Shown here: positions 11,731 to 13,689 of the stretch, in pieces
How the letters are laid out: every line of letters starts with the position of its first letter
Numbering within the stretch: position 1 is the stretch's first letter
From: Methanoregulaceae archaeon
GTDB taxonomy: Bacteria > Armatimonadota > Fimbriimonadia > Fimbriimonadales > Fimbriimonadaceae
DNA: 64,000 bases
Assembly (NCBI GenBank): GCA_020850325.1
Contig: JADZEW010000008.1
Location: 310,001 to 374,000 of the forward strand
Reading direction: 5' to 3'
Translations under genes and position numbers: made by a program
The notes under the pieces: model-generated
What the model was told of the DNA's origin: nothing
The model's database searches: none
The model's input: only the letters and a program-made list of their open reading frames with translations

Positions 11731-12411
11731 ATGAAGCTCTTGCTTATGATCGTGGCGCTGTCGATCGCGGCCGCATTCGCTGGCTCGGTGGCAGACAAGA
11801 AGGTGTACTTCATGTACTTCATGCGCGGCGAGGGCACTCGCCCGACCGACCAGAAGCTGCTGGACGCGATGCAGAAGGGCCACATCGAGAACATGGTCAA
11901 CCAAGCGAACCTTGGAAAGCTCCTGGCGGCGGGACCCCTCAACGATCCGGGCCAAGCTCGGCGGGGCATCACGGTGCTGCATGTGGATGATGAGAAGCAG
12001 ATTCCTGCTCTGTTCGAGAACGACCCCTACGTGAAGCACGACATCATGCGGGTCAAGGCGGCGAAGTGGGACGTCGATCCCAAGATGTTCAAGCCGGCGG
12101 TCGATCCGAGTTCGATCGTCGAGTATCGCTTGGTGCTGATGAAGCGTGGATTGGGGATGCAGCCGGAGAACGACGATATGGTTCGCGAGCACCGCAAGTT
12201 CATGGACGGTCTAAAGAAGACCCACCAACTCGCCGTGTGGGGCACGGTAACCGGACTCGACGGCGTTCGCGAGGTCATGATCTTCAACGGGACGGATACC
12301 GATGGCATCATGAACAAGCTCAAGGAAGACGCCTACGTGCAGAAAGCGCTGATGAGCCCGGAAATCTTGCCGCTTTGGATGTCGAAGGGCGTCGTTGGTG
12401 CAACAAAGTAG
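11731..12411 (+). CDS. Exported YciI-like protein (two dimeric alpha-beta barrel units)
   Basis: A 226-residue protein with a cleavable-looking signal peptide (MKLLLMIVALSIAAAFAGS). Two YciI-like units follow. The first (about 25-105) has LLAAGPLNDPGQARRGITVL and ENDPYVKHDIMRV; the second (about 120-220) has HQLAVWGTVTGLDGVREVMIF and EDAYVQKALM. YciI/DGPF proteins are small dimeric barrels, mostly of unknown activity, so a tandem copy would form an internal pseudo-dimer. An in-frame ATG at 11713 is possible, but the signal peptide and the -10-like TATGAT favour 11731. It is followed after 25 bases by the small UGA-containing frame and hemW. Confidence 0.82.
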   Translation: MKLLLMIVALSIAAAFAGSVADKKVYFMYFMRGEGTRPTDQKLLDAMQKGHIENMVNQANLGKLLAAGPLNDPGQARRGITVLHVDDEKQIPALFENDPYVKHDIMRVKAAKWDVDPKMFKPAVDPSSIVEYRLVLMKRGLGMQPENDDMVREHRKFMDGLKKTHQLAVWGTVTGLDGVREVMIFNGTDTDGIMNKLKEDAYVQKALMSPEILPLWMSKGVVGATK

Positions 12412-12436
12412 CGGGTTTCGGCGCTAGAAAGAGACG

Positions 12437-12607
12437 ATGATGGGCAAGTTGCTTCTCTCGGTAGCGATCGGCGGCGGGCTTGGGTTCGGATACCACCTGC
12501 TCATGAAGGCCATCGGCTCCCAATGAATCAACTGCCATCAGCCGGCGGTGCCGGTGATAGCGGGGATGGTCTTGGGTTTGATCGCCGTGCTGGGCAGCCG
12601 CCAGTAG
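12437..12607 (+). CDS. Candidate small selenoprotein: two-helix membrane protein with in-frame TGA (UxxC)
   Basis: From ATG 12437 the frame encodes 29 residues, meets TGA at 12524-12526, and then continues without another stop to TAG at 12605-12607. The first part is a glycine-rich transmembrane helix (SVAIGGGLGFGYHLLMKAIG). After the TGA come Ile-Asn-Cys-His-Gln-Pro and a second clear transmembrane helix (VPVIAGMVLGLIAVLG). Reading TGA as selenocysteine gives a 56-residue protein with U30-x-x-C33 in the loop between helices. G or C in third codon positions is 24 of 29 before the TGA and 23 of 26 after it; the hemW frame over the same bases has 12 of 27. A SECIS-like hairpin follows. If TGA is a true stop, the gene is 12437-12526 (29 residues) coupled to hemW. 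The shape recalls DUF6132-like small proteins with a Cys-containing loop; that is inference. Confidence 0.6.
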
Positions 12608-13689
12608 CGGTCTACGTTCACACGCCCTTTTGCCCGACCAAGTGCGGGTATTGCGATTTCAACAGCTACGCCATGGAGGGCGAGATCATGGCGCGGACGA
12701 CCGCCGCGATGATCGAAGAGATCCGGCGCAGCCCTTGGCGGGGACAACCGGCGAAGACGATCTTCTTCGGCGGCGGGACGCCGACGTACCTGCCGACCGA
12801 TCAGCTCCTCGCCATCCTTGCGGCGGTGGTCGAAGTCCATCCGCCCATCGATGACGCGGAGATCACAAGCGAAGCCAATCCTGGGACGGTGGATGCGGAC
12901 AAGTTCGGGGCGATGCGCGAGGCAGGATTTAATCGGGTGAGCCTGGGCGCGCAGAGCTTCTTGGATGACGATCTTCTGCGGCTCGGGCGAATCCACGTGG
13001 CGGGGCAGATCGAGGCCGCGGTCGCTAAGGCCAGGGATGCAGGGTTTGACAATCTCAACCTCGACCTCATGTTCGCCTTGCCTGGTCAGTCGTTGCGAGC
13101 GTGGGATCAGAACCTCCGCCGGGCGATAGGGCTCGAACCGGAACACCTGTCGCTATACTGCCTAACGCTGGAGCCCAACACCCCGTTCTATCGGCAGCAC
13201 CTGCGAGGGCTGCTGATTCAACCCGACGAAGACGATCAGGTCGAGATGTACGAGCTTGCGCGGGACCGAGCGGCCGATGCTGGCTATGCGCATTACGAGA
13301 TCAGCAACTTCGCTAAACCCGATCGCGAGAGCCGGCACAATCTCGCCTACTGGCGCGCCGAGTCTTACGCCGGTTACGGGCCCGGAGCGGTTGGGTTCAT
13401 GGACGGGGTGCGCACGACGAACTGGAAACACCCCGAGCGGTACATCGAGGCCGTCCAGTCCGGTGCGCCCACGGCCTTCGAACACGAGTCCATCGGCGAG
13501 AGTACGCATCGACTCGAGCAGATCATGTTGGGCTTGCGCCTGAGCGAGGGAATCCCCGTCGCGCTTGCCGAAGAAGAGGGGCTGCGCGCAATGACATCGC
13601 GGGGATGGGTTGATCTGTCAAGCGGCCGCGTCGTGCTGACGCCTGACGGGCAGCACTTCTGTAGCGAAGTTGCTCTCGCCCTTGCCTAG
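12523..13689 (+). CDS. hemW: HemW-like radical SAM heme chaperone
   Basis: A 388-residue protein. The radical SAM cluster motif C-x3-C-x2-C is at Cys37, Cys41 and Cys44 (FCPTKCGYCDF). The residue after the motif is Phe, not the fourth Cys of HemN, so HemW is the better call than coproporphyrinogen dehydrogenase. FFGGGTPTYL (SAM binding), NRVSLGAQSF, and the HNLAYW segment associated with heme binding in HemW follow. The only in-frame canonical start is ATG 12523, which overlaps the TGA of the small frame. The first 26 residues are Gly/Asp-rich and look like a shadow translation of that frame, with low GC at third positions. Confidence 0.92.
   Translation: MNQLPSAGGAGDSGDGLGFDRRAGQPPVAVYVHTPFCPTKCGYCDFNSYAMEGEIMARTTAAMIEEIRRSPWRGQPAKTIFFGGGTPTYLPTDQLLAILAAVVEVHPPIDDAEITSEANPGTVDADKFGAMREAGFNRVSLGAQSFLDDDLLRLGRIHVAGQIEAAVAKARDAGFDNLNLDLMFALPGQSLRAWDQNLRRAIGLEPEHLSLYCLTLEPNTPFYRQHLRGLLIQPDEDDQVEMYELARDRAADAGYAHYEISNFAKPDRESRHNLAYWRAESYAGYGPGAVGFMDGVRTTNWKHPERYIEAVQSGAPTAFEHESIGESTHRLEQIMLGLRLSEGIPVALAEEEGLRAMTSRGWVDLSSGRVVLTPDGQHFCSEVALALA
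12537..12558 (+). promoter_or_regulatory. SECIS-like hairpin just downstream of the in-frame TGA
   Basis: ATCA (12537-12540) pairs with TGAT (12555-12558), a single G at 12541 is bulged, and CCGGC pairs with GCCGG around a GGT loop (12547-12549). The bulge is at +15 from the TGA and the loop at +21 to +23. In Escherichia coli fdhF the corresponding bulge is at +15 and the GGUC loop at +19 to +22. A G in the first two loop positions and a UGA-to-loop distance of this size agree with the known bacterial SECIS pattern. A GC-rich hairpin can also arise by chance. Confidence 0.5.

Follow-up and report, generated by a model that had tools for sequence, protein, structure and literature searches.

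The membrane selenoproteins catalogued in prokaryotes include mercuric transport proteins (PF02411), YeeE/YedE (PF04143) and SO_0444 Cu/Zn efflux proteins (NF033936) (PMC13188914). In the model of the bacterial SECIS element (bSECIS), the apical loop is 3–9 nt long with an early G and lies 16–37 nt after the UGA, the upper stem has 4–16 bp and the minimum free energy is −7.5 kcal/mol or lower (PMC13188914). The 64,000-nucleotide stretch of DNA analysed here (referred to as the window) contains a 56-residue gene with a single in-frame TGA, which is predicted to encode selenocysteine (Sec). The predicted product resembles the catalogued membrane selenoproteins in being an integral membrane protein with Sec, which in some of those proteins is part of a CxxU or UxC pair (PMC13188914). 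Pfam and NCBIfam scans gave no match to PF02411, PF04143 or NF033936, and no model of either database reached its cut-off for the window protein. The features of the locus are summarized in Table 1.

Table 1 Features of the predicted selenoprotein locus (positions in the window).
Feature	Position	Strand	Evidence
Gene for predicted 56-residue two-helix membrane selenoprotein	12437..12607	+	Translation; 93 homologues all with TGA or Cys in the Sec column; dN/dS
UGA codon predicted to be read as Sec, residue 30	12524..12526	+	Column of TGA, TGC and TGT only, which tracks the Sec machinery
Partner cysteine codon TGC (Cys33, UxxC)	12533..12535	+	One Cys no more than 7 residues from the Sec/Cys in 89 of 92 members
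Putative bacterial SECIS hairpin, ATCAGCCGGCGGTGCCGGTGAT	12537..12558	+	Fold; loop position in relatives; compensatory changes; codon bias; z scores
Stop codon TAG of the selenoprotein gene	12605-12607	+	Translation
hemW-like radical SAM gene	12523..13689	+	Pfam Radical_SAM and HemN_C

The window protein has the same length and two-helix layout as DUF6132 (PF19628), a small membrane family of unknown function. It differs from that family in having no match above the cut-off and in that most Armatimonadota members carry Sec. Distant members pass the Pfam model (G254, 31.7 bits; G256, 24.8 bits; G230, 23.5 bits; cut-off 23.2 bits), and these three proteins can be aligned to the entire window protein, with the Sec column falling on the Cys of a GGGCPMTSNP-type motif. 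The family, with its predicted Sec, is a divergent relative of DUF6132. Neither DUF6132 nor XapX is among the 119 prokaryotic selenoprotein families and subfamilies of a 2026 review (PMC13188914), the deep-Sep paper, searched by word, contained neither "6132" nor "Armatimonad", and literature searches limited to open-licence papers found no study of Armatimonadota selenoproteins. It was therefore classed as a new family of bacterial selenoproteins.

Membership in XapX/DUF1427 (TIGR03510, PF07235) was also considered. This small domain has a PAPP-like turn resembling that of the window protein, and 8 of 26 members matched it weakly (best E-value 1.1e-4). All of these matches were under the cut-off, with the window protein at 11.8 bits against a required 27.8 bits, and the assignment is unsupported.

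The frame opened by ATG 12437 comprises 29 codons, the TGA and 26 further codons up to the TAG, and is translated as MMGKLLLSVAIGGGLGFGYHLLMKAIGSQ-U-INCHQPAVPVIAGMVLGLIAVLGSRQ. G or C occupies the third codon position in 24 of the 29 codons before the TGA and in 23 of the 26 after it, while the hemW frame has 12 of 27. These positions and counts had been reported in the initial annotation, together with a hairpin after the TGA, its bulge at +15 and its GGT loop at +21 to +23, and all were reproduced exactly. An open frame beyond a TGA is no evidence by itself, because 121 of the 236 TGA-terminated ATG open reading frames of at least 20 residues in the window have at least 26 more sense codons, and the case therefore rests on comparison. 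The comparative evidence lifts the frame after the TGA far above this chance level. The protein has two hydrophobic stretches separated by a short turn, and a structure model of moderate confidence (pLDDT 68.5, pTM 0.37) places helices at residues 2–26 and 37–54 with the Sec in the turn, in agreement with the two-helix membrane protein proposed initially. The distribution of charges among the members does not settle the membrane topology.

Homologues were collected by a protein search of 101 relatives and a profile search of 291 Armatimonadota genomes, and a profile search of contigs with a closer alignment matched six named loci. A low-scoring match with Asn at the column (L061 in G029, E-value 0.001) was excluded as probably unrelated, and two weak matches that could not be aligned (L068 and L069) were dropped. 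The resulting 93 alignable homologues are spread across Armatimonadota, and the nearest named relatives come from Fimbriimonadaceae and other Armatimonadota metagenome-assembled genomes. The search was confined to this phylum; Sec-containing relatives of the protein in other phyla are possible. At the column of the window TGA, the codon is TGA in 69 homologues, TGC in 20, TGT in 4 and nothing else, and the downstream frame is conserved.

The genome containing the window (G000; 3.5 Mb, 98% complete) encodes the complete set of Sec machinery that was sought. No component had been recognised within the window, and the genome-wide search identified selA (C25:29215, 469 bits), selB (C35:100412, 346 bits), tRNA-Sec (C1:393334, 67 bits) and selD (L149, C10:34730-35632 on the minus strand, 351 bits). 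The selD gene itself has one in-frame TGA, within LVSCAG-U-ASKLGPAQLS, at the established Sec site of SelD; the genome therefore has at least two predicted selenoproteins.

Across the homologues, the residue at the column follows the presence of the machinery: of the 69 genomes with TGA, 66 gave a selA match, and 22 of the 24 genomes with Cys gave none (Fisher p = 4.8e-16; no phylogenetic correction was applied, and the genomes do not count as independent events). In the remaining three TGA genomes (G036, G193 and G255), tRNA-Sec scores about 72–73 bits, so that selA or tRNA-Sec was found in all 69. In Cys genomes other than G096, the tRNA-Sec score was no higher than about 50 bits. Specifically, selA-positive genomes with the Sec form are accompanied by selA-negative genomes with the Cys form in genus g4 (G050; Cys in G004 and G033), g6 (G006; Cys in G035), g19 (G161; Cys in G043, G055, G019, G163, G168, G169, G171 and G177) and g21 (G179; Cys in G021, G044, G056 and G178). 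In genus g128, G232 has the Sec form and selA, and G231 and G233 have the Cys form and no selA match over the cut-off. The switch between Sec and Cys recurs inside at least five genera, and the within-genus switches provide separate contrasts. The exceptions are L049 (G049) and L138 (G096), Cys forms in genomes with selA, where the loss of Sec in the gene may precede the loss of the machinery.

The putative SECIS element has a core stem CCGGC/GCCGG in which 12542-12546 pair with 12550-12554, an apical GGT loop at 12547-12549, 20 nt separating the TGA from the loop, and, in the folded model, an unpaired base at +15. With this loop distance, a 6-bp stem and a free energy of −9.0 kcal/mol, it satisfies the bSECIS model, and it shares with the bacterial consensus a small apical loop that starts with G (mostly GG or GU), lies 20 nt from the UGA and falls in the coding region. 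An Rfam search found no known element at 12400-12700. Most Fimbriimonadales TGA members have CCGGC-GGU-GCCGG with the loop 20 nt past the TGA, encoded in the codons for PAVP. Among the 40 TGA members whose motif is PxxP, CCG encodes the two Pro residues in 39 and 38 members, respectively, and Ala is GCG in 36 of 36; by comparison, two long window genes use CCG in 17 of 46 and GCG in 50 of 112 of the corresponding codons.

Pairing is kept in the variant CCGGU-GGU-ACCGG of G005 and G030, which belong to two different genera, and further variants are GCCAGUG-GGUC-CACUGGU (G179), GGGCAC-GGUC-GUGCCC (G072), GGGCACC-GUG-GGUGCCC (G003) and AGGGACC-GGC-GGUUCCU (G183). The hairpin survives sequence change through compensatory changes. 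This covariation was taken from individual hairpins, as the MAFFT alignment was wrong for one hairpin of unrelated sequence. When the codons were recoded synonymously with the protein preserved, the mean z score was −2.83 for 41 TGA members versus −0.31 for 18 Cys members. The z scores use a null from the codons before the TGA and replaced a per-sequence p value with a family-pooled codon null, which was too conservative. TGA members of other classes differ from the consensus in having a longer hairpin, whose apical loop lies about 32–35 nt from the TGA (mean z −2.62 for 27 TGA members versus −0.95 for 6 Cys members). In L114, L122, L123, L125, L127, L130, L135 and others outside Fimbriimonadales, TGCAAyCC pairs with GGrTTGC and replaces the short hairpin. 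Both the short and the longer hairpins lie inside the published range of 16–37 nt (PMC13188914). These results suggest that the SECIS architecture shifted within one phylum in the same gene family, and the hairpin is conserved by structure beyond the demands of the protein sequence.

Could the TGA be an ordinary stop, with a 29-residue peptide before it and only the hemW start or a spacer behind it? Gene callers would end the open reading frame there, and the hemW frame opens at ATG 12523, overlapping the TGA. The substitutions speak against it: dN/dS, computed over 13 pairs of closely related TGA members, was 0.093 before the TGA and 0.159 after it, while pN/pS in the other two frames of the downstream stretch was 1.64 and 5.54. 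All four differences after the TGA between the window genome and G001 of the same genus are synonymous in the selenoprotein frame and nonsynonymous in the frame of the hemW extension, and Cys members read through the same frame without a stop. The 26 codons after the TGA are real coding sequence under purifying selection, and an ordinary stop is hardly credible. A conserved downstream frame would equally be expected if a code change or leaky read-through inserted an ordinary amino acid without selenium. In many members, however, the gene itself terminates at a genuine TGA stop, which argues against a general reassignment; moreover, the sole replacement is Cys, not Trp or Gly, and tracks the Sec machinery, and Cys members no longer have the hairpin, so we consider this reading extremely improbable. 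The hairpin itself might serve the expression of hemW as an RNA switch or coupling element, which would make its conservation uninformative on Sec, and about 34 loci do have hemW directly 3′ of the gene, the two often sharing a short overlap of the ATGA type. Yet Cys members that precede hemW lack the hairpin (e.g. G044, G056, G021, G040 and G055), and TGA members without an adjacent hemW possess it (e.g. G161, G048 and G027), which leaves a role confined to hemW very little room. The decoding of the TGA as Sec, as the initial annotation had inferred, is supported by the Sec machinery, the column restricted to TGA and Cys codons, the conserved frame and the structurally conserved hairpin. Neither of the two outcomes that the initial annotation named as refuting, a genome devoid of Sec machinery or homologues ending at the TGA with no conserved frame behind it, was observed. 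In the absence of protein-level evidence, we are nonetheless highly confident that UGA 12524 is decoded as Sec and that the protein family is real.

In the proposed mechanism, SelB and tRNA-Sec would decode UGA 12524 under the direction of the GGU-loop hairpin 20 nt downstream, a step for which the comparative support is strong, and genomes without Sec machinery would make the Cys version. The Sec would be located in the short turn between the helices (as modelled with moderate confidence), paired with a single cysteine, and the pair would probably cycle between the selenol/thiol and selenenylsulfide states, which is an inference. In 89 of the 92 members, one and only one Cys lies no more than 7 residues from the Sec/Cys. 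It occupies position +3 in 37 members and +4 in 28, and is upstream in the other 24 (mostly −4 or −5). The UxxC motif described initially is present in the window protein and does not hold as a general rule. The retention of the pair while the partner switches side would fit a selenenylsulfide/disulfide pair.

At the window locus, the gene is flanked by genes for a YCII-domain protein and the hemW-like protein, and the selenoprotein gene and hemW probably form one operon in Fimbriimonadales. The overlap with hemW stands as far as the open reading frames are concerned, and only an unconserved N-terminal HemW extension is involved. The first 27 hemW codons overlap the selenoprotein gene in another frame and are unconserved, and HemW homology in most relatives starts around residues 20–28, corresponding to the end of the selenoprotein gene. 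The hemW frames of the window genome and G001 have no ATG, GTG or TTG between ATG 12523 and the conserved HemW start, and ATG 12523 overlaps the Sec TGA as ATGA. Since no other start follows ATG 12523, hemW translation might couple to termination or Sec insertion at the UGA; a selenium-dependent link to hemW translation is possible and untested.

No thioredoxin gene is among the neighbours at the window locus. In family f8 and in G230, the gene follows a thioredoxin gene with a gap of 11–31 nt, and in seven f8 loci of genus g50 (L115, L118, L119, L124, L126, L067 and L121) it is the Sec form that has thioredoxin as its immediate upstream neighbour. Some f8 thioredoxin copies have the motif WCAPC instead of WCGPC. 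In G197, the gene precedes genes for thioredoxin and a thioredoxin-reductase-like protein. L137 (G216) and L141 (G215) are natural fusions of the two-helix unit with a thioredoxin domain, both in the Cys form with TGGGCPLxCSP, and the thioredoxin domain of the G216 fusion matches PF00085 with an E-value of 2e-25. OsmC-like genes lie directly 3′ of the Sec form in L122 (G225), L128 (G224) and L123 (G229), and these neighbours are a further thiol-redox association.

Because related lineages have the unit either as a thioredoxin fusion or in a gene next to thioredoxin, a thioredoxin-linked selenol/thiol redox role in the membrane is the most likely function, an inference that we hold with slightly less than even confidence. 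The main alternative is that the selenoprotein takes up or handles sulfur, selenium or a soft metal at the membrane, with the Sec/Cys as a ligand rather than a partner in thioredoxin exchange. The distant members belong to DUF6132, of which one neighbourhood (on a Riemerella plasmid) adjoins genes for a TonB receptor and for a protein with a heavy-metal-associated domain, and such a role would have company among the transport and efflux families of known membrane selenoproteins (PMC13188914). The fusion to thioredoxin in two genomes and the adjacency in three further lineages count against it, and two short helices are scant for a channel unless the protein is oligomeric; we consider the uptake or ligand role a real but rather doubtful possibility. 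A more specific form of the thioredoxin-linked role can be put forward only as speculation, and we think it unlikely as it stands: oligomers of the two-helix hairpin would form a membrane-embedded selenol relay, in which the Sec/Cys pair would undergo exchange with thioredoxin and hand on reducing equivalents, either to the membrane or across it. Such a relay would be far smaller than DsbD or CcdA and would have been kept across the phylum with repeated switching between Sec and Cys.

The present gene adds a predicted selenoprotein family with unusually complete comparative support. With only 56 residues and a TGA near the middle, such a gene is easily missed by gene callers. The switches between Sec and Cys within genera, together with a partner cysteine that changes sides, offer a natural experiment on the reasons for retaining Sec, and the link to thioredoxin provides a testable lead on DUF6132, the function of which is unknown.
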